Assembly: GCA_943736015.1 (NCBI GenBank)
Contig: OX031063.1
Coordinates: 35,122,172-35,186,171, forward strand
Direction of reading: 5' to 3'
DNA from: Tridacna crocea
Lineage: Eukaryota; Mollusca; Bivalvia; Cardiida; Cardiidae
DNA: 64,000 nt
Made by a program: the position numbers and the translations under genes. Each line of letters begins with the position of its first letter. Positions within the stretch are counted from its first letter, which is position 1. The notes under the pieces were generated by a model that saw only the letters and a program-made list of their open reading frames with translations, ran no database searches and was not told the DNA's origin. Below are positions 28,640 to 59,100 of the stretch, one piece after another.

Positions 28640-28813
28640 GTGTAATGCAGAGATTTGACCCTCCCCTACAAAATCACCCAGGTCATTATTCTACGTAGAG
28701 TAATGACACCAGAAGTCATTTCACTACGTAGAAAAATGACCCAGATTATTATTCTACGAAGAGAAATGACCCATGGGCCATTTTGTAAAGGGGGACATTT
28801 CTCTGCATTACAC
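28640..28813. mobile_element. Family D MITE with nested palindromes
   Basis: Ends GTGTAATGCAGAGA and TCTCTGCATTACAC are inverted repeats. The interior alternates ATTCTACGTAGA-type palindromes with AATGACCC/GGGTCATT blocks. Copies lie at 40055-40283 and 46859-47035. It has no coding capacity. Confidence 0.8.
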
Positions 28814-30811: not shown

Positions 30812-32191
30812 CGGTAAAAAAGCCAGATGTAAAAAAGCCATAGGTAAAAAGGCCATAGGTAAAAAAGCCAGAAGTAAAACGGTAAGAAAACCATAGGTAA
30901 AAAGGCCATAGGTAATAAGGCCATAGGTAAAAAAGCCAGAGCTAATTTAGTAGTATTATATGATGTACAGAAAGCGTTTTATTTCACAAAATCTTTAGCA
31001 GTATTTTGGGAAATGAAGAAGCCAATTTTTCCTTTTCCCACAATGTTTTATATCCTATGTTGATGTATTGTATGCAGATTATTTCAATATGTAAGAGTCT
31101 GATATAAGTTGTTTGATAAGGGGAACTAATCGTAAATAATACTTCTCCAGTCTTCAGCTGCTGATTTTAGAAAACATTAGGAAAATAAAAAACTGCTGAT
31201 AACAGACAATTTCTCCATTTCCCACACTTTCGTATATTGATGTGTTGTATGCAGATTCTTTCATTATTTACAGCTTTCCCATACAGTGCAATTTTATACG
31301 GGTCTCCTTTTACTTTTCTTGCACATAACAAACAATTTCTACTTTTCCAACAAGGTTTTTTCCTATCTTGATGTGTTTTATGCATGCTCTTTCAACATAA
31401 AAGAATCTAAAATCAGTTGTTTGATAAGTGAAACTGGTCATACTTAAGACTTTCACAGTAGCAGCTGATGACTTTAAAAACATTTAAATGAAAGTTCTTC
31501 ACAAACATAATTTTGACTGATATTGGGGAGTCCCTAATGTTTATTATTGGTATCATTATTAAGAAGCAAATAAACTAATTGCAATCATTGCATACCATTT
31601 TTTCATACTTTAAGTTTAATTCTATGGAAAAACCTTCAATACAAAAACAAACTAATTACAAACATGTGCAAACGGTTATTTTACAAGTCAAAGTTTTAAT
31701 CATAATAATGCAACCGGTCAATAACAGTTTAAAATAATACTGTTAAATTATGTATAAGGGCATTTCTTGGACCTATTATTGGTTTCAATTATTTATCAAG
31801 AAGTACTTGTAATAAACGAACAATATAATTTCTGAAATAATAATAAAAAAAAATATATTATTGCCCTACCTTTTTGATAACAAAAAAAATTATCTTCATT
31901 TAGATACCACATAATGCCTTGCATAAAGTATGGTTAATTCTTTTAATTTACCTAATAAATGTTAAAATCAATACACAAATCATTATAAATCATTTTATTA
32001 AATATCTATATATATTAAAAATATCTGGTATTTTCTTAATAAACCATAAATACTAAATTAGATCTGGCTTTTTTACCTATGGCCATATTACCTATGGCTT
32101 TTTTACAGTTTTACTTCTGGCTTTTTTACCTATGGCCTTTTTACCTATGGTCTTTTTACCTATGGCTTTTTTACCTCTGACTTTTTTTACC
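30812..32191. mobile_element. Foldback element with minisatellite arms
   Basis: The left arm, 30812-30957, is a tandem run of AAAAAAGCCATAGGTA-type 15-16-mers ending GCCAGAGCTAATTTAGTAGT. The right arm, 32048-32191, is its reverse complement, starting ATACTAAATTAGATCTGGC and running through TTTTTTACCTATGGC units. The roughly 1.1-kb interior is AT-rich with decayed MITE pieces near 30995-31060 and 31165-31240 and has no coding frame. Large inverted arms made of tandem repeats are typical of foldback-type non-autonomous elements. Confidence 0.7.
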
Positions 32192-39700: not shown

Positions 39701-42700
39701 ATGATTTCAGCACAGGGTTGAATGAAAATCTTTGAAGTAAACTAACTAGTAGTCGTTATAGATAATCCAAACGCTCACGTGACGATAACGGATGATCTGA
39801 ATGCCCGTTGTGGAGAACTACAAGATTATTTTATACTTAGTACCGTAATTAAGATTTCTTACTTTGACGATGACACTAATTCAGAACATGATCATTTCAA
39901 TCTCCCAGGAAAACCAAAAGATAAAGAAGCAAACTGTTATAGATACATTTTATTGGGAATTTCAATCACACTTTATCGAAAGTGGCCTAAAGCATCTGTA
40001 AAAAGTATCGATCCAGGTCAGCCTATGAAGTCTGCATGGGCTGACATATGGCGGGTGTAATGCAGGGAAATGACACTGGCCCATGGGTCATCTCTCTACG
40101 TAGAAGAATGACCCGGGTCAGTATTCTACGTAGAGAAATAACCCTCTGGGGTAATTTCTCTACGTGGAAGAGTAACCCCGGTCATTATTCTACGTAGAGC
40201 AATAACCCTGTGGGTTCATTTTTCTATGTAGAATAATGAACCATGGTCATTTTGTAGGGGAGGATCATTTCTCTGCATTACACGGGACCTTTTGCTGTTG
40301 GTGAACTTTCTACATATCTAGGGACTATCCTATCACAGAATAAAACAATTTATAGAAAAATGGCTTAAATAGTCAACAGTTTTTCATATCTTACTTGGCG
40401 TATTGGATCATGGATATTCACTAAACACTCTTTTACCAGAACATGGCTCATTTTCAACTGTGTCATTTTCCTTTTTTACCTATATTATTTCAGACTGTGG
40501 TGACCCACCGAAAGTGTTAAACGGCACATTTTTACTAAAGTCAGGTGGCGCAGGAAACTTTCAGCTCGTTTGTGACGAAGGATTTTACCTGCAAGGTACA
40601 GATGTTTATATTAGCTGCTTACCAAATGGACAATGGACCTCGACAGCCGCTGTATGCAGAACCAAAGGTAAACAGATGTAAATAGCGCTATGGAAAACAA
40701 GTTTTCCAAATGCATAAAACCAAATAAGTCGTGGCATAGTCAATTAACTCTGAAGCATGACTGAATCATTACGTAGAACGCTACTTGTAAACTTAGAAAA
40801 CTGTGCAGTCTGACATGGGTCAATACTTTTGCAAATGTATTAACTCATTACCAAAGGACAAAATTTTGGACTGGCCCAAAATGAAAGCATTTGCAGACGA
40901 CAAAATAAATGTGAGTCAAAAATTGGAATTTGATTTGGAAACGGTAGAAAACATTGTGGGAAAAGGAGAAAATACTGGTAAGCAATATTTTCTCCTTTTC
41001 CCACAATATTTTCAAACGCTTTCTTTCTCAGGGTATTGAGAGTAGGGATTGTGTGGTAATGGGTTAAACTATCTTTTTAGGAACCTGACAGATACTGAAT
41101 CTTCATGTCAATGTCATCCTTTTTGGCCTTTCTTAATGTCCATCCGGCAAATCTCGGGTGGTCAGTTGATCCAATCCCTCAGCTGTATTACGATGGGTGA
41201 TATCGTCGGATTACCTCTAAAGCCTCATAACTACAGCTTGTTTCAAGCTGTGATTACGAAGTTTTTCAGGCAAACCGACGATATCCTCCTACGTAAATAA
41301 GCCGCTATACCGTTCTTATAATTGTAAGACAAAGAAAATACGTGTCTTAAGTTTTCTCTCAAAATGTTTCCGAGTCTATTTCCGCTGACATTCATTTCCG
41401 TTGGCATTTATAAGTCTAAAACCACTATATTCTCATTACAAAGGGAGATAATAATTACCTCCCTTTTCTGGAAACTAACAAAACCGTCAACAAATAATTT
41501 CAAGATAGACATCAAAGGAACTTCTGGTCGGTTAAAAATGTGCAAAAGTATTTTATCTGTATAAATTCGTATTCATCAACTATGTTTTCTACCCTATCAT
41601 AGACAGAAACCATCTTTTCAGCAAGAGTTGAATTGTCGTCTGCAAATGCTTTCAATTCGGTCTAGTCCAAAAGTTTGTCGTTTGGGAAAGGGTTAAAACC
41701 CCAAACTCTGCCACAGTTTTTTCTGAGAACTGGTAATCGTAATTGCGACAGGTTTCATTCTTTTTTCAACGCTGATCATTGCGTCTTCAAGTGGGAAAGT
41801 AGCTCTTAGCTTTGAAAGAATACTGTGCGATGTAGTGGGAAAAAAAACTCGAGACAAGCATGTATCGGTGCATGGCCGCCAATAAGTAATTGAAATAACA
41901 TTGTGAACGAATTTAAACACAACATAAAATAAGCTGAATTCCCTTTTGTTTGGTTGTCTGTTCAATTCTCAATGAGTCTTTAAAATTTTAGACTTCTCCA
42001 TGATGCAAATCTTTGCAAATGTCTATCTTCTTTCGGCGCCAAATATAATTATGGCCTGTAACACACGCAAAGGCCCATATGGACATTTGCAGAAAGTGTC
42101 GTCTCGGATCAACAGGCACAGGCTAATCCAAAATGACACTTTCCGTTTTGGTGCAATTTTCTGTTTTACGCAAGGGTGTTGTAGCATAAAATCTGTGGTC
42201 ATAGAGTGTCATCTCGGATTAGCCCGTGCGTACTGCGCAGGCTGATCCGAGAGAACACTTTACGGAAATGTCCGAATACCCCTTTTCGCGTGTTGCAAGC
42301 CATTATTGAGCAAAGCTCGGTAAAAGGAAAAAGTTTAATGCATCTGCGAACAGTATCGAACGCTCAGTGTAACCTGGGTCGATACCTTTTGCTTTTGGTC
42401 AATTTTTTGAAAGTCGAAGGACAAGTATACCTTAACGATTTCGACCGTCGGTTGTAGGGCAAAATTTATTTTTGTGGATACATAATTATGTGATGACTTG
42501 ATCTATATAATAGATCACAGAGATACATTAAACCCCCTTTTTTGCCAAAGCATGGCTCCTAAAACATCAGCATGTTTCAATTGCTGCATAAATTAACCCT
42601 TTCCCAAACGACAAACTTTTGGACTGGACCAAATTGAAAACATTTGCAGGCGACAATTCAAGTCTTGCTGAAAAGATGGTTTCTGTCTATGACAGGGTAG

Positions 42701-46858: not shown

Positions 46859-47035
46859 GTGTAATGCAGAAAAATGACCCTTCCCTACAAAATGACCCGT
46901 GGGTCATTTCACTACGTAGAGAAATGACCCATGGGTCATTTCACGATGTAGAGAAATGACCCGGGTCATTACTCTACGTAGAGAAAAAAAAACCGTGTCA
47001 TTTTGTAGGGGGGGGGGTGATCTCTCTGCATTACA
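46859..47035. mobile_element. Family D MITE
   Basis: GTGTAATGCAGAAAAATGAC at the left and TCTCTGCATTACA at the right, with three CTACGTAGAGAAATGACCC-type modules inside. Confidence 0.8.
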
Positions 47036-47725: not shown

Positions 47726-47873
47726 TGGGTTTAATTCTAACGACATTACTTCTCACTGGTACCTACGTTGTGGGTAGTAATTCATTGGAATAGTCTCGTT
47801 CAGACAGTTGTAATCAGTGACAACAGCATCGATTGCAATGGGAAAAAAAGTAGTGTATTTCTTCAAACAAAAA

Positions 47874-48500
47874 AAGAGGGCCATGATGGCCCTGGATCGC
47901 TCACCTGAGTCAATATAGGCGAAATTTCACTCCACATGTGTAATTCAATTGCAAGGCCAATTAAGCTTGAAATGTGGCCTCTAGAGGGTCAACATGGAAT
48001 TTCCTAGGTTGGCATAGTGACCTACTTTATCACCATGGGTGACCCAATAAAGAACTCATCACAAATTGTTCAAAACGCACGGAACAGTTTTCAAATTAAT
48101 TGAGCAATAAATGTGGCCTCTAGAATGCCCACAAGGTAATTCTTTAATCTGACCTAAAGACCTAGATTATGATCCCAGGTGGCTCCTTTTTCCATGACAC
48201 AACCTGTATTTGAGAAACCGGGAAAGAGGTATCATAAGACAATTTTTTATATGAAGCCCCCTTTTTCCTTGATGCAGCCTGAAATTGAGAAACTGGGGAA
48301 GAGGTTTTGAGCACTAATGTAGGAGATATTAGAGATAAACAATTTTTTACATGAAGCCCCCTTTATCCGTGACCCAGTCTCAAACTGAGAAACCGGGAAA
48401 CAGGTATTTTCGCAATGTTCCAAGGAGTTCAGATATGGAATTTCATAAAATTTGGTCTAGGGATTGTGGAGAAATGGCTTCGGACGGCTTTATTCTCTAA
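47874..48500. repeat. Relative of the tandem-repeat element family
   Basis: Opens with AGAGGGCCATGATGGCCCTG then ATCGCTCACCTGAG, the same start as the elements at 50119 and 53637. Its interior has three or four degenerate units with GAAACCGGGAAAGAGGTAT and CCCCCTTTTTCC-like blocks. The right end is lost. Confidence 0.6.
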
Positions 48501-49661: not shown

Positions 49662-49853
49662 ACTAACTCTTAGCATACAGCAAACTTTCAGACTTTTCTA
49701 CATTGAAAGCAACATACAAGACGAAAATGATTATGTCTAAACAAAAGGTTATTTTTGAGAAAGAGATGAAAACACTTTATTAATAAAAGAAAACTCTAGT
49801 AAGGAGGACTTTCTCTTTTTCTCTGAATGCTTTCTACAGACTTCCTTTACTTT
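49662..49853. mobile_element. Degenerate TTAA MITE (family A)
   Basis: Retains ACTAACTCTTAGCATACAGC, ACATTGAAAGCAACATACAA and a decayed hairpin arm (GAATGCTTTCTACAGACTTC). It lies directly beyond the gene 3 stop codon and includes the candidate poly(A) signal. Confidence 0.5.
49776..49781 (-). terminator. Candidate poly(A) signal for gene 3
   Basis: AATAAA on the minus strand about 75 nt after the gene 3 stop. It lies in a decayed MITE, so the element may have supplied the signal. Unproven. Confidence 0.35.
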
Positions 49854-50107
49854 TCAGTCACTTAACTTAACACCCAGTATCCCACCTTTTCCATCTCTCA
49901 TATACACATACGAGCCAGCCTTTGAACCAAGTTCTGCATTTAGATCACTGTTGTCATGGAGATATGCTACATGAAATGACCTTGGCCCCTTAGCTAGAAA
50001 AGGTAAAACTCCCTTCAGTTGTCCCCTATTGTCAAAGTAGAATACATGTTCATGATAGTTCCTCTGCTCTTCATTGAGGCACATGGTGAGAGAAACAAGG
50101 AGTCCCA
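49854..50107 (-). CDS. Gene 3 last exon with stop
   Basis: 254 nt, entering in phase 1 after ttattacttttcag. It begins VGLLVSLTMCLNEEQRNYHE (first V split), continues HVFYFDNRGQLKGVLPFLAK and AGSYVYMRDGKGGILGVKLS, then Asp and TGA. A weak donor (AAAAG|gtggga) near the end leaves open a further exon. Its acceptor lies only about a dozen bases from the 5.3-kb repeat insertion. Confidence 0.7.
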
Positions 50108-53100
50108 CTGAAAAGTAATAAAACAAGAGGAACATGATGGTCCTATATCGCTCACCTGAGTACCAAGCTGTAAAATCAAACTTGTGACCCCTGGGCCAGT
50201 TTTGACCCCAGGGGCATCCTAAGAAAAAACTTGGTAGAGGTCCACTAGGAGATGCTATTTCCAAAATATCAAAGCTCTACGCCTTCTAGTTTCAGAGAAG
50301 TAGAATTCTAAAAGTTTTCCTTCTTTGTTCCTATGTTTAGAACTTGTGACCCATGGGGCAGGGCAAGTTTTGACCCCAGGGAGAAACTTTGTAGAATTCC
50401 TCTAAAAGATGCTAAATACCAAATATCAAAGCTCTACGCCTTCTAGTTTCAGAGAATAAGAAATTTAAAGTTTTCCTTCTTTGTTCCTATGTTTTAAACT
50501 TGTGACCCCCAGGGCTTGGGCCAGTTTTGACCCAATGGGCATCATATGAACAATCTTGGTAGAGGTTCACTAGGAGATGCTACATACCAAATATCACAGC
50601 TCTGCACCACCTAGTTTCAGACAAGAAGAATTTTAAAGTTTTCTTTCCTTGTTCCTATGATTCAAACTTGTAACCCAAGGGCGGGCAAGTTTTGATCCCA
50701 GGGGCATCATATGAACAATCGTGGTAAAGGTCCACTAGGAGATGCTACATACCAAATATCAAAGCTCTACACTTTCTAATTTCAGAGAAGATTTTTAAAG
50801 TTTTCCATCTTTGTTCCTATGTTTCAAACTTATGACCCTCAGGGCGGGGCCAGTTTTGACCCCAGGGACATCATATAAACAATCTTGGTAGATGTCCCCT
50901 AGGAGATATTACATACTAAATATAAAAGCCCTACGCCTTCTAGTTTCAGAGAAGTAGACTTTTGAAGTTTTCCTTCTTTGTTCCAAGGTTTCAAACTTGT
51001 GACCCACGGGGCATGTTTCACACTTGTGACCCCCGGGGCGGGACCAGTTTTGACCCCAGGGGCATCATATGAAAAATGTTGGTAGAAGTCCACTAGGGAG
51101 ATGCTACATACCAAATATCAAAGCTCTGCACTTTCTAGTTTCAGAGAAGAAGAGTTTCAAAGTTTTCCTTCTTTGTTCCTATGTTTCAAATTTGTGACCC
51201 CCAGGAGGGGCCAGTTTTGACCCCAGGGACATCATATGAACAATCTTGGTAAAGGTCCACTAGGAGATGCTACATATTAAATATCAAAGCTCTGCACCAT
51301 CTAGTTTCAGAGAAGATTTTCAAAGTTTTCCTTCTTTGTTCCAAAGTTTCAAACTTGTGACCCCCAGGGCAGGGCCAGTTTTGACCCCAGGGATATCATA
51401 TGAACAGTCTTGGTAGAGGTCCACTAGGACATGCTACATACCAAATATCAAAGCTCTGCGCCTTCTAGTTTCATAGAAGAAGAATTTTGAAGTTTTCCTT
51501 CTTTGTTCCTGTTTCAAACTTGTGACCCTCAGGGCGGGGCCAGTTTTGACCCCAGGGACATCATATAAACAATCTTGGTAGATGTCCCCTAGGAGATATT
51601 ACATACTAAATATAAAAGCTCTACGCCTTCTAGTTTCAGAGAAGTAGACTTTTGAAGTTTTCCTTCTTTGTTCCAAGGTTTCAAACTTGTGACCCACGGG
51701 GCATGTTTCACACTTGTGACCCCCGGGGCGGGACCAGTTTTGACCCCAGGGGCATCATATGAAAAATGTTGGTAGAAGTCCACTAGGAGATGCTACATAC
51801 CAAATATCAAAGCTCTGCACTTTCTAGTTTCAGAGAAGAAGAGTTTTAAAGTTTTCCTTCTTTGTTCCTATGTTTCAAATTTGTGACCCCCAGGAGGGGC
51901 CAGTTTTGACCCCAGGGACATCATATGAACAATCTTGGTAAAGGTCCACTAGGAGATGCTACATATTAAATATCAAAGCTCTGCACCATCTGGTTTCAGA
52001 GAAGATTTTCAAAGTTTTCCTTCTTTGTTCCAAAGTTTCAAACTTGTGACCCTCAGGGCAGGGCCAGTTTTGACCCCAGGGATATCATATGAACAGTCTT
52101 GGTAGAGGTCCACTAGGACATGCTACATACAAAATATCAAAGCTCTGCACCTTCTAGTTTCATAGAAGAAGAATTTTGAAGTTTTCCTTCTTTGTTCCTG
52201 TTTCAAACTTGTGACCCTCAGGGCGGGGCCAGTTTTGACCCCAGGGACATCATATTAACAATCTTGGTAGATGTCCCCTAGGAGATATTACATACTAAAT
52301 AATAAAAGCTCTACGCCTTCTAGTTTCAGAGAAGTAGACTTTTGAAGTTTTCCTTCTTTGTTCCAAGGTTTCAAACTTGTGACCCACGGGGCATGTTTCA
52401 CACTTGTGACCCCCGGGGCGGGACCAGTTTTGACCCCAGGGGCATCATATGAACAATCTTGGTAGAAGTCCACTAGGAGATGCTACATACCAAATATCAA
52501 AGCTCTGCACTTTCTAGTTTCAGAGAAGAAGAGTTTTAAAGTTTTCCTTCTTTGTTCCTATGTTTCAAATTTGTGACCCCCAGGAGGGGCCAGTTTTGAC
52601 CCCAGGGACATCATATGAACAATCTTGGTAAAGGTCCACTAGGAGATGCTAAATATTAAATATCAAAGCTCTGCACCATCTAGTTTCAGAGAAGATTTTC
52701 AAAGTTTTCCTTCTTTGTTCCAAAGTTTCAAACTTGTGACCCCCAGGGCAGGGCCAGTTTTGACCCCAGGGATATCATATGAACAGTCTTGGTAGAGGTC
52801 CACTAGGACATGCTACATACCAAATATCAAAGCCCTGCGCCTTCTAGTTTCATAGAAGAAGAATTTTGAAGTTTTCCTTCTTTGTTCCTGTTTCAAACTT
52901 GTGACCCCCAGGGCGGGGCCAGTTTTGACCCCAGGGACATCATATAAACAATCTTGGTAGATGTCCCCTAGGAGATATTACATACTAAATATAAAAGCTC
53001 TACGCCTTCTAGTTTCAGAGAAGTAGACTTTTGAACTTTTCCTTCTTTGTTCCAAGGTTTCTAACCCACCGGGCATGTTTCACACTTGTGACCCCTGGGG

Positions 53101-56100
53101 CGGGGCCAGTTTTGACCCCAGGGGCATCATATGAACAATGTTAGTAGAAGTCCACTAGGAGATGCTACATACCAAATATCAAAGCTCTGCACCACCGAGT
53201 TTCAGAGATTTAGAGTTTTAAAGTTTTCCTTCTTTGTTCCTATGTTTCAAACTTGTGACCCTCGGGGCGGGGCCAGTTTTGACCTCAGGGGCATCATATG
53301 GACAATCTTGGTAGATGATTACTAGGAGATGCTACATACCATGTATCAAAGCTCTATGCCTTCTAGTTTCAAAGAAGAAGATTTTCAAAGATTTTGGTAA
53401 TTTTTTTTCCCTTTTGGTTGCCATGGCAACCAGATTTTTATGGCTGGAATTCAATCTCTTGAAAAATTTTGGTAGAGCTTCACCAAAGGAACATCCCTGC
53501 CAAGTTTCATCAAGATTGGCCCAGTGGTTAAGGAGGAGATGTTTAAAGAAATTGTGGACGACAGAAGACGCATGACGCACAACTGACATTTGGCGATCAC
53601 AAAAGCTCACAATGAGCACTTTGTGCTCAGGTGAGCTAAAACAAGAGGACCATGATGGTCCTAAATCGCTCACCTGAGTACCAAGCTTTAAATGCAAACT
53701 TGTGACCCCTGGGCAGGGCCAGTTTTGACCCCAGGGGCATCCTAAGAAAAAACTTGGTAGGAGTCCACTAGGAGATGCTACTTACAAAATATCAAAGCTC
53801 TACGCCTTCTAGTTTCAGAGAAGTAGAATTTTAAAGTTTTCCTTCTTTGTTCCTATGTTTCGAACTTGTGACCCATGGGGCAGGGCCAGTTTTGACCCCA
53901 GGGGCATCATATGGATAATCTTGGTAGAGGTCCACTAGGAGATGCTACATATTAAATATCAAAGCTCTGCACCATCTAGTTTCAGAGAAGAATATTTTTA
54001 AAGTTTTCCTTCTTTGTTCCAAAGTTTCAAACTTGTGACCCCCCCGGGGCACGGCCAGTTTTGACCCCATGGGCATCATATGAACACTTTTGGTAGAGGT
54101 GCACTAGGAGATGCTACATACCAAATATCAAAGCTCTGCACTTTCTAGTTTCAGAGAAGAAGAATTTAAAGTTTTGCATCCTTGTTCCTATGTTTCAAAC
54201 TTGTGACCCTTGGGGCAGGGCCAGTTTTGATCCCAGGGACATCATATGAACAATCTTGGTAGGTGTCCCCTAGGAGATGCTACATACAAAATATCAAACC
54301 TCTACACCTTCTAGTTTCAGAGAAGTAGACTTTTAAAGTTTTCCTTCTTTGTTCAAAGTTTCTAACTTGTGACCCCTGGGGCGGTGTCAGTTTTGACCCC
54401 AGGAGCATCATATGAACCATCTTGGTAGAGGTCCACTAGGAGATGCTACATACTAAACGAATCAAAGCTCTGCGCCTTCTAGTTTCAGAGAAGAAGAATT
54501 TTAAAGTTTTCTTTCTTTGTTCCTATGATTCAAACTTGTGACCCCCAGGGTGGGGCCAGTTTTGACCCCAGGGACATCATATGAACCATCTTGGTAGAGG
54601 TCCACTAGCAGATGCTACATACCAAATATCAGTGCTCTGCCCTTCTAGTTATATAGAAGAAGAATTTTAAAGTTTTCCTTCTTTGTTCCTATGTTTCAAA
54701 CTTGTGACCCCTGTTTTGACCCCAGAGACATTGTATGAATAATCTTGGTAGATGTTCCCTAGAAGATGCTACATACAAATTATCAAAATTCTATGCTTCT
54801 AGTTTCAGAGAAGTAGAATTTTGAAGTTTTCCTTCTTTGTTCCTATGTTTCACACTTGTGACCCATGGGGCTGGGCCTGTTTTGACCCCAGGGGCATCAT
54901 ATGAACAATTTTGGTAGAAGTCTACTAGGAGATGCTACATACCAAATATCAAAGCTCTGCACTTTCTAGTTTCAGAGAAGAAGAATTTTAAAGTTTTCTT
55001 TCTTTGTTCCAATGTTTCAAACTTGTGACCCTCAGGCCGGGGCCAGTTTTGACCCCAGGGGCATTATATGAACAAACTTGGTAGAGGTCTTCTTGGAGAT
55101 GCTGAATACCAAATATCAAAGCTCTTCACCTTCTAGTTTCAGAGAAGAAGATTTTCAAAGATTTTGCTATTTTTTTCCTTTTGGTTGCCATGGCAACCAG
55201 AATTATGGCTGGAATTCAATCTCTTGAAGAACTTTGGTAGAGCTTCACCCACAATACATCAATGCCAAGTTTCATCAAGATTGGCCCAGTGGTTTGGGAG
55301 GAGATGATGTTAAAGAAATTGTGGATGACGGACGATGGACATTGGGCAATCACAAAAGCTCACCATGAGCACTTCGTGCTCAGGTGAGCTGAAAAGTAAA
55401 ATTAACATCTGTTACTTTGTATTGTGTATGTCCACTTCGGTAACATGATTGCTATGACATGTGTTGGCTAATTTATCATTTCAAACATCCGATTTCAAAT
55501 TTTGGAGGAGAAAATAAGAATTGAAAGATGTCTTAATAGGGCCTATTAAGATTTCTTAGTTGTAAGTCAAAGTTTCTAGTAAAAGACTGATAGATTTAAA
55601 GTTTTTTTCAAAAGAAAAAGGAACAGTTGCCTTTAATAAAAAAAAGCAATATATGTGTTATAATAATGATATGATAGTGATGCAATCTGTTACTCATCTA
55701 TTGCTACAAGACTAGATATGACATCATCTTGCATATTTCAATATGACTCCACATGATGGACAGTTACCCTGATCAGCTGGTTAACAGCATTTTCCTTTTC
55801 TCTCAACTCTTTCTGAGATAATTTGCAGCATCTAAGCCACGCTTTATTTGTTGTCTGGAATTGCTTTGGATATGGAAAAGTCCAATATTTTGTCTTTTGT
55901 GAAAGGGTTGCAACAAGAATGCCAATAGCACTTATTACCTTCTTTGCTGACAAAGTGAGCCTCTTTTGCAATTCCAGGCAGACTGACTTTATACACAAGG
56001 TTTACAGACACCACCTCCTTGTTCGGCTCTCGAATCAAATCCACAACAAGGACAGTGTTTCTTACAGCCAAAGCCGACCTACATACTTTACAGCTATCTC

Positions 56101-59100
56101 TCTCAAACAGATTTTCTGTCAGGATTTTAACACTATCAAACTGACCAATCAGTATCTTTCTATCATCTGTAAGATTTTCTTCAATAAGGCTGCATAAAAG
56201 AAAGCAAACAGACTCATTATAAAGTCTTAACCCATTACCAGATGGAAAAATTTTATACCTATCCAAGTTTAAAGCATTTGCAGACGACAATTTCAAAGAG
56301 GCTGAAATGGTGTAATTTGGCTTTTATAGGGTTGAAAACTTTGTAGGAAAAGGAGAAAATGCTGGTTACCAGCATTTTCTCCTTTTCCCACGATGTTTTT
56401 AAAAAGGCCTATTCCTCCAGGGCCGTTAACTCTGTACCACACGAGAAAATTTTAGACTGGTCCAAACTGAAAGCATTTGCAGACAACAAAATGAAGGTGA
56501 CTGAAAAATTGAAATTTGTTCTGTGAAGGGTAGAAAACACTGTGGGAAAAGGAGAAAATGCTGGTTACCAGCATTTTCTCCTTTTCCCACAGTGTTTTCA
56601 AAAGGCTTCTTTCTCAGGGGCGTCAAAAGTAGGGATTGTGTGGTAATGGGTTAATAGTAGTCATAGTATGGTAAAGGGTTAAACACATCATTCCAAGCTT
56701 GTATGATTCTGGCTTAAAAGCCTGTTGAAAACATTTTAGACAAGGGAGAAAATGCTGCTATCTAGCTAGCATTTTCTCTTTTTCCAATCATGTTCTATAA
56801 CCCATCAGAAACAAATCCAATTATTTTTGCAACATTTATTACATTGTCTGCAAATGCTTTCAATTTGAACTAGTTTAAAATTTAGTTATGTGGCAAAGAG
56901 TTAAAAAACAGAGAGTCCAGTAACAGGCTCAAGATTATTAGGAAAAACCAATCCCTTAACTCTTTATCAACGGACAAAATTTTAGACTGGTCCAAACTGA
57001 AAGCATCTGCAGACAACAAAAATAAATGTGACTGAAAAAAAAAAAATTGGGTTGGGAAGGGTAGAAAACATTGTGGGAAAAGCAGAAAATGCTGGTTACC
57101 AGCATTTTCTCCTTTTCCCACAATGTTTTCAAACGGCTTCTTTCACAGGGTCGTTAAAATTTGGAATTGTGTAATAATGGGCTAACTCTTTACCAAATGA
57201 CAAAATTTTGGACTAGTCCCAATTGAGAGCATTTGTAGATAACAAAATAAATGGGAATCAAAAATTGAAATTTGATTTGGAAAGGGTAGAAAATATTATG
57301 GGAAATGGAGAAAATGCTGGTTACAATTATTTTCTACTTTTGCCACAATTTTTCAAAGGCTTTCTTCATCAGGGTCATGAAAAGTTGGATTTTGTGGTAA
57401 AGGGTTAAACAAAATACAACATTTAAGTTTGGCCCAAATTGGAAGCAACCCCAGGTGTCAAATTAGATAGTGCTCATATGATAGGGTTTGTCTATGAAAG
57501 AGTATTAGAAGTTGTAGGAATAGGACAAGTTACCATCGTTTTCTCCTCATCCCACTACGTTTTCAAAAGCCTTTTTCGACAGAGTCACACAAATATGACA
57601 TTATGTTATATTTCATAAAGCAACAGGACAAAAGTGACAAACTTTAGCTTTATGAGAACAGATTATATCCTTTACCACTAAATCCCTAGTTTTAACAACC
57701 CAGAGGAAGAAGGTTTTGAAAACATAGTAGGAAAATGAGAAAATGCTGGTTAACAGGCATTTTCTTTCTTCACACTGTTTTCTACCAGTTCAATGGCAAA
57801 TCCCCTAATTTGCAAAAGCATTCACTTAGCCTTTAATCATACAAACCTGTGATTTAACAACCCTGAGGAATTATGTATTTTGAAAAAAAAAATGGGTATA
57901 GGAGAAAATGCTGGTAACCAGCAATTTCTCCTATTTACACAGTATTTTTGTCCCTTTAATAGAAAAAATTCCATGATTAAAGATATTAAACTTTGGTTCA
58001 TAGATTCTTTCAGTGAGGATAAATCTGACATTTTGTCATTTATTAAAAACTTAACCAGTGTTCCCAGGATTGAACTACAGAAATGGTTCTCACCTTTCTG
58101 ACAGGTCAATGGTAACAAATTCCATGGACAAGGGATCCATGAAACCCAGGCCAATGGATAAATGAAGTAGTAAGAGTTTACCAGTGGCCGACTGGCCAAC
58201 TGTTTTCAAATGCAACACTTCATTTTTGACCTCTGGTTTACCAAGCAGTGACCAATACTGGACAATGGACCAAGTGACTCCTTCCTCTAAATCTTCCCTT
58301 CCTCGCTCCATGCCAATCATGTGTTTCCATACACTATAATATTAATAAATACAAGAGGGCCATGATGGCCCTGTATCGCTTCACTGGACTTTTTAACCTT
58401 TACCACACAAATTGAAGTGTTCATGACCCTGACAAAGAGGGCTTTCAGAAACAATTAACACTGTCAGGCAATACAAGCAGTTTAATTTATTGGCAAGAAA
58501 TGTAAAGTTCTTGGGAAAAAAAACTGAATGATAGAAACCATACTCTGAATTTAAAATTCCAATCATGTGAGCATAACTATTTGCATCAAAATGAATCACT
58601 CTCCATGAAAACAGAATATTTTCTATCAAAAAACTTAATATCTAGCACCAATCATTAATCATTGCAGTTTTATAATCAAGGAAAGGAAATAGTAATAAAC
58701 TTTATCCTTTATTAAAAGAGTTATTTCCCTTGATTAATGTTTTAATTGAAATTGCTTTTAAGGTAAGACATGTGTAATGCACTTCCGGTGAACATTTGGC
58801 AAAAATTCTAATTGGTTGTTAAATAAGGATAAATAAGGATTTATGCAGAAATAATATTTTTGCACATTTCTAACGGAGCAGAAATTCCATTTGAAACTAT
58901 CTTGAAACTATTATTTGATATTTTTGTTTGTTTTCTAAAAAGGGAGGTAATTATTATCTCTTTTTCAATTGAGAATATAGCCGTTTTAGATTTATAAATG
59001 ATAATTCAAAGAAGTTAAAAATGGAAAAAATGAAAAGGTGAAAGTAGTTCAATTATATTCATTTTTAATTATAGCTAATTTTGTATGATGATATTTTAGT

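Follow-up and report, generated by a model that had tools for sequence, protein, structure and literature searches.

Two head-to-tail copies of a non-autonomous Helentron in the acceptor of the last exon of a probable Tridacna crocea gene

We analysed a 64,000-nt stretch of the genome of the bivalve Tridacna crocea (GenBank assembly GCA_943736015.1, contig OX031063.1, positions 35,122,172 to 35,186,171), referred to here as the window. Its minus strand probably carries a gene whose last intron contains a 5.3-kb insert. By its anatomy, the insert consists of two copies of a non-autonomous Helentron (HINE), arranged head to tail, which lie in gene orientation within the polypyrimidine tract of that intron. 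The features of the locus, in gene order, are as follows.

55939..56189 (−), previous exon; acceptor TTTTATGCAG/CC and donor G/GTAATA, phase 1
55389..55399 (−), upstream acceptor-like TTACTTTTCAG; flanking TTAC plus TTTTCAG at the place of the family 5′ end, TTTTTAG
53638..55395 (−), HINE copy B, the first of the two in gene order; has the 5′ end, hairpin, central ∼167-bp repeats, 3′ subterminal repeat and palindrome
55358..55389 (−), 5′ subterminal repeat GCTCACCTGAG and its inverted partner; predicted hairpin of −14.5 kcal/mol as DNA
53647..53661 (−), 3′ palindrome of copy B, GGACCATCATGGTCC; same as the family form
53630..53645 (−), head-to-tail junction of copies B and A, CTTGTTTTAGCTCACC
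50120..53637 (−), HINE copy A, adjoining the exon; central ∼165-bp repeats
50150..50160 (−), 3′ subterminal repeat of copy A, CTCAGGTGAGC when read along the gene
50129..50143 (−), 3′ palindrome of copy A, GGACCATCATGTTCC; one base from the family form
50108..50118 (−), exon-proximal acceptor TTACTTTTCAG; the element's CCTCTTGTTTT stands before it
49854..50107 (−), last exon; a split codon followed by 83 codons and a stop

An exact 11-bp direct repeat, CTGAAAAGTAA, was found at 50108–50118 and 55389–55399 of the plus strand; on the gene strand, both edges of the insert carry TTACTTTTCAG. A third copy of CTGAAAAGTAA, at 49847–49857, is on the opposite (minus) strand at the stop codon, outside the insert. 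The mean number of copies expected from 100 shuffles was 0.08. Read along the gene, the exon at 56189–55939 is followed by ∼540 nt of intron, TTACTTTTCAG at 55399–55389, the insert, TTACTTTTCAG at 50118–50108 and the exon from 50107. The final G of the upstream TTACTTTTCAG is base 1 of the 5′ subterminal repeat. The original prediction for this DNA had described a tandem-repeat insertion at the acceptor, bordered by a perfect 11-bp direct repeat, with an intact acceptor on the exon side and a second one 5.3 kb upstream. The exact matches at both borders confirm the repeat, and both AGs are present in the sequence. The insertion at the acceptor also stands: 5.3 kb of repetitive DNA interrupt the pyrimidine tract that leads into the last exon of a probable gene. 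The insert does contain tandem arrays, but it is not a bare array: two mobile elements had been overlooked.

On the gene strand, the HINE unit starts with TTTTTAGCTCACCTGAG (with TTTTCAG in copy B), ends with CTCAGGTGAGC...GGACCATCATGGTCCTCTTGTTTT and includes a GTCC-like stretch recognized by eye. Both units carry the same head (at 50122 and 53640) and the same tail (at 53614 and 55367). The subterminal inverted repeats have 18-nt arms, 89 % complementary, that match 55372–55389 to either 53668–53685 or 50150–50167. The 5′ hairpin had a z-score of −5.2, and none of 200 shuffles folded as well; no stable hairpin was predicted for the palindrome of copy A. Tandem Repeats Finder rows include 50193–53065 (period 165) and 53695–55179 (period 167), and the array of copy A comprises ∼17 units or more. 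Within copy A, stretches of 50819–53065 recur every ∼690 bp, or about four units, a higher-order duplication within a single element. The exact head-to-tail junction occurs at 8 places, the window's own among them. A recent dimer was ruled out, the 5′ ends of copies A and B being only 89.9 % identical over 218 bp. Each copy differs by ∼5 % from the family majority, which alone yields ∼10 % between them. The two copies may stem from one old dimer or from separate insertions, the later one into the T-rich end of the earlier. Close to the insertion lies another, third HINE 3′ end, which is diverged, at 47865–47910 (GGGCCATCATGGCCCTC on the minus strand, 88 % identical to the head over 41 bp).

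The 1.05-Gb genome contains thousands of HINE copies of this family. Exact family 5′ ends numbered 2379 with TTTTTAG and 29, including the window, with TTTTCAG; exact 3′ ends numbered 1116. The GGACCATCATGGTCC palindrome is present in many relatives as well as in copy B. For 23 insertions, namely the one in the window and 22 others taken from 20 fetched loci, we paired the outer flanks. The 22 include diverged relatives (with 5′ ends of 61 % and 84 %, and 3′ ends as low as 52 %), and one pair, at L044, may join two elements; all 22 were kept. The longest word shared by the two flanks of these 22 averaged 5.23 bp, with a maximum of 7 bp. The corresponding values for 506 mismatched pairings were 5.28 bp and 10 bp, with two pairings reaching 10 bp and none 11 bp. 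Because the shared words of the 22 insertions are no longer than those of the mismatched pairings, the family inserts without target duplication. Consistent with this, the flanks of a site beside a GRB2-like exon, described below, share at most 5 bp, and oyster HINEs are likewise reported to lack target duplications (PMC7492417). A wider pool of 2651 pairings excluded the window pair and included same-locus pairs as well as ends selected for CAG or acceptors; 10 of these (0.4 %), one of them within L058, shared at least 11 bp and 61 shared at least 9 bp. Given 10 of 2651 in this pool and none of the 506 in the cleaner set, the 11-bp repeat of the window is unusual, yet not astronomically so.

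As the family 5′ end is TTTTTAG, the element alone is expected to place a T-run followed by AG at the upstream border. The final seven bases of the repeat, TTTTCAG, equal TTTTTAG with one T-to-C change and stand at its place, which marks them by position as element sequence. In our judgement, the upstream 'second acceptor' is probably, for the main part, the element's own 5′ terminus beside a chance TTAC, two HINEs having entered the tract and the exon-proximal acceptor having been kept. Among the 28 other TTTTCAG copies, read on their 5′ side, one at a different site is likewise preceded by TTAC. The original prediction had the insertion create a target-site duplication; in light of the 22 family insertions and the TTTTTAG terminus, that claim is unsupported as stated. 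Several observations weigh against our interpretation. The window pair is an outlier, its 11 bp exceeding the maximum of 7 bp among the other 22, and our interpretation needs two coincidences, the T-to-C change (29 versus 2379 copies) and TTAC. No second copy of either flank, and hence no empty site, was found in the genome among the candidates scored (15 of 15 in one search and 40 of 4128, mostly another repeat, in a second). Finally, T-richness around HINEs is clear on the 3′ side only. There, the first 8 nt after CTTGT are 55 % T, versus 35 % further out, and the first base after the 3′ end is T in 23 of 25 cases. On the 5′ side, most copies have five T, perhaps part of the element, and the sequence before TTTTTA is 34 % T.

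An alternative is a true 11-bp target duplication, in which an atypical insertion, such as one involving staggered-break repair with a 5′-truncated element, would leave both copies of TTACTTTTCAG host-derived. The repeat is perfect, the rare C preceding the AG is identical to that of the host acceptor, and no mismatched pairing in the cleaner set is as long. Yet the 22 relatives show no sign of duplication, some pairings of the larger, less clean pool do reach this length, and the account requires the element to have lost TTTTTAG and to have acquired instead a target whose last bases, TTTTCAG, agree with it at 6 of 7 positions. We consider this explanation unlikely, although not to be dismissed, and favour a chance match of two T-run–AG sequences over a rare true duplication. 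The two predict different sites before insertion: after a true duplication, GTTAATT TTACTTTTCAG/TGGGACTCC, with TTACTTTTCAG once; after plain HINE insertion, a longer, T-rich tract such as TTTTAC...TTTATTACTTTTCAG. A satellite array formed in place by unequal exchange, with no mobile element inserted, would account for the tandem arrays and for the ∼690-bp higher period of one of them. It does not fit defined ends that are common to thousands of dispersed copies, nor the flanks, which differ among the 20 fetched loci, and we give it almost no credence.

It is also conceivable that there is no working splice site here, the gene being dead or the exon unused and the insertion neutral. The two-exon protein had no match in Pfam or NCBIfam (E up to 1), its best match in the PDB (E of 0.078) was not convincing, and no paralog of the exons was found as protein in the genome (E up to 0.01). 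Attempts to identify the gene through these three databases thus yielded no convincing family. However, the donor at 55939 (GAAG/GTAATA) and the acceptor at 50108 (TTTTCAG/TGG) are canonical, match in phase and join two open frames; the joined frame terminates with the residues SD and a stop codon, and AATAAA begins 72 nt downstream of that codon. The Fickett scores are high as well: 1.05 and 0.99 for the two exons, which rank in the top 1.6 % and 2.8 % among 2000 segments of the window, and 1.05 for the exons joined in frame, in the top 0.7 % of 2000 segments. A dead gene or unused exon therefore appears quite improbable. The predicted exons probably belong to a gene, and the exon-proximal acceptor probably remains the one used.

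Insertion of Helentrons is reported to follow a rolling-circle route, without target duplication, and to take place at TT within T-rich DNA; a pyrimidine tract would accordingly be a natural target on the sense strand. The exon-proximal acceptor, tcctcttgttttattacttttcag/TGGG, has 13 pyrimidines of 16 at −20 to −5, compared to 11 of 16 for the upstream one. The host tract touching the exon is only ∼12 nt long and the sequence before it is HINE, whose 3′ end, CCTCTTGTTTT, may help to rebuild the tract before the old AG. The former branch-point zone would now be ∼5.3 kb upstream unless it lies within the ∼12 host nt, and for that reason the element would have to supply one. A duplication alone, if there was one, could not restore the splice signal. 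The proposal that it had done so was incomplete, as it leaves out the element sequence before the ∼12 nt of host tract. A limit to the further proposal, that the array could become exon through the upstream acceptor, is set by the predicted frame from the upstream AG, which reads AHLSTKCSW, nine residues, and then a stop; use of this acceptor would not be expected to make the array a long coding exon.

HINEs were also found at other acceptor-like sequences; the window case is not unique. TTNCAGR occurred within a set distance after 36 of the 1116 exact 3′ ends, compared to 20 for the scrambled control TTNGACR, and about six of the 36, assessed by eye, are another repeat ending in GCATTTGCAGA or similar. 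The antisense acceptor pattern gave 224 matches, an absolute count rather than a fraction of ends. We examined 20 of the 36 sense and, from those listed, 20 of the 224 antisense sites, picked by eye for good tracts, and scanned with Pfam 7 chosen open reading frames from 7 sense loci and 10 from 9 antisense loci. One sense HINE adjoins a GRB2-like exon, 53 residues of which match GRB2 SH2 structures at 2e-20 (Pfam SH2, 1.6e-4, above cut-off). Another adjoins a RIF1-like exon (Rif1_N, 2.3e-7, above cut-off), and a third lies beside a match to MFS that is weak (0.0024, below cut-off). The GRB2-like site shows both HINE ends, and the upstream end has ctttttcctttttag and reads ctttttcctttttaGCTCACC, a putative decoy acceptor. 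At the RIF1-like locus, the HINE 5′ end was not seen within the 2.1 kb fetched. None of the 10 open reading frames from the 20 antisense sites had a Pfam match.

These data raise the possibility that the ends of HINEs serve as a portable kit for 3′ splice sites: a T-rich preference would steer sense insertions into tracts, the 3′ end would rebuild the tract and branch-point zone so that genes survive, and the 5′ end would leave a decoy TTTTTAG acceptor at every such site. We put this forward tentatively, as less probable than not. Against it, an open frame of at least 25 codons was no more frequent after sense than after antisense sites, with 10 of 20 in either group. The difference in Pfam matches (3 of 20 sense versus 0 of 20 antisense) is not significant by a hand estimate. 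A comparison of tracts (7 of 31 versus 0 of 33) was set aside as built in, because the element's pyrimidine-rich end itself counts toward the tract. The excess of 36 over 20 is modest; enrichment of HINEs at acceptors is unproven and we do not claim it.

There is nothing exceptional about the element itself, which belongs to a known kind. With HINE/Cg_HINE of oyster it has in common subterminal repeats, an inverted partner of the 5′ repeat, a GTCC-like stretch (by eye), central repeats of ∼160 bp, a 3′ palindrome and, in the family, insertion without target duplication (PMC7492417); Pearl-type elements of bivalves, which that source also covers, go with HINE/Cg_HINE. The likeness to Cg_HINE and Pearl is one of anatomy, and the present case differs in having two head-to-tail copies inside an acceptor, with ∼17 or more units in copy A. 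DINE-1 and HINE-Mo of arthropods, as far as known a different host group, are described as built alike at their ends and as inserting between flanking T without modifying the target (PMC4067079). Introners offer a further comparison: as outlined in PMC9860276, transposon ends and target sequence jointly form splice signals, and some introners gain a splice site via target duplication. By contrast, the intron in the window holds ∼540 nt of other sequence and the element sits inside it. Among the papers listed by literature searches, none was seen to concern Helitrons or Helentrons in pyrimidine tracts. The interest of the locus lies in the position inside the acceptor, in the other such cases and in the mimicry between element end and splice site.

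A candidate autonomous partner was found elsewhere in the genome. There were 32 Helitron_like_N matches, four within open frames of more than 2500 codons, and a family 3′ terminus lies ∼7 kb downstream of one match, on the same strand. This candidate autonomous Helentron would combine a Rep domain with the HINE 3′ end (G000 C1:73579700-73588420; loci L139 and L130). Its 3′ terminus is 100 % identical over 47 bp to that of L041; among the matches listed, HINE similarity starts no earlier than base 170 of 271. The candidacy follows from the 3′ end, and a separate HINE may lie there. If the Helentron at C1:73.58 Mb has both HINE ends, TTTTTAGCTCACC is expected at its 5′ end.

Other repeats were observed in the window. 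An abundant repeat with AGAAAATGCTGGTTACCAGCATTTTCT foldbacks, at 56221–57400 and elsewhere, resembles some HINE flanks (L036, L038, L040 and L130); flanks of this type could supply empty sites for the study of targets. Inverted arms of 15-bp repeats (30816–30952 and 32051–32187; 137 nt, 85 % complementary) flank a 1.1-kb core and resemble a foldback-type element. Short arrays at 28671–28773, 40080–40253 and 46890–46986 have a unit of ∼30–32 bp with CTACGTAG and GGGTCATT or similar.

The pyrimidine tracts of introns are bound to be encountered by any mobile element with a preference for T-rich DNA. Where a transposon at a splice site has a direct repeat beside it, the repeat is not necessarily a target duplication, because the element end and the acceptor are both T-runs followed by AG. 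If HINE ends replace the tract and branch-point zone, copies could build up at acceptors with little harm and, if so, the decoy acceptors left behind might give rise to new exons.

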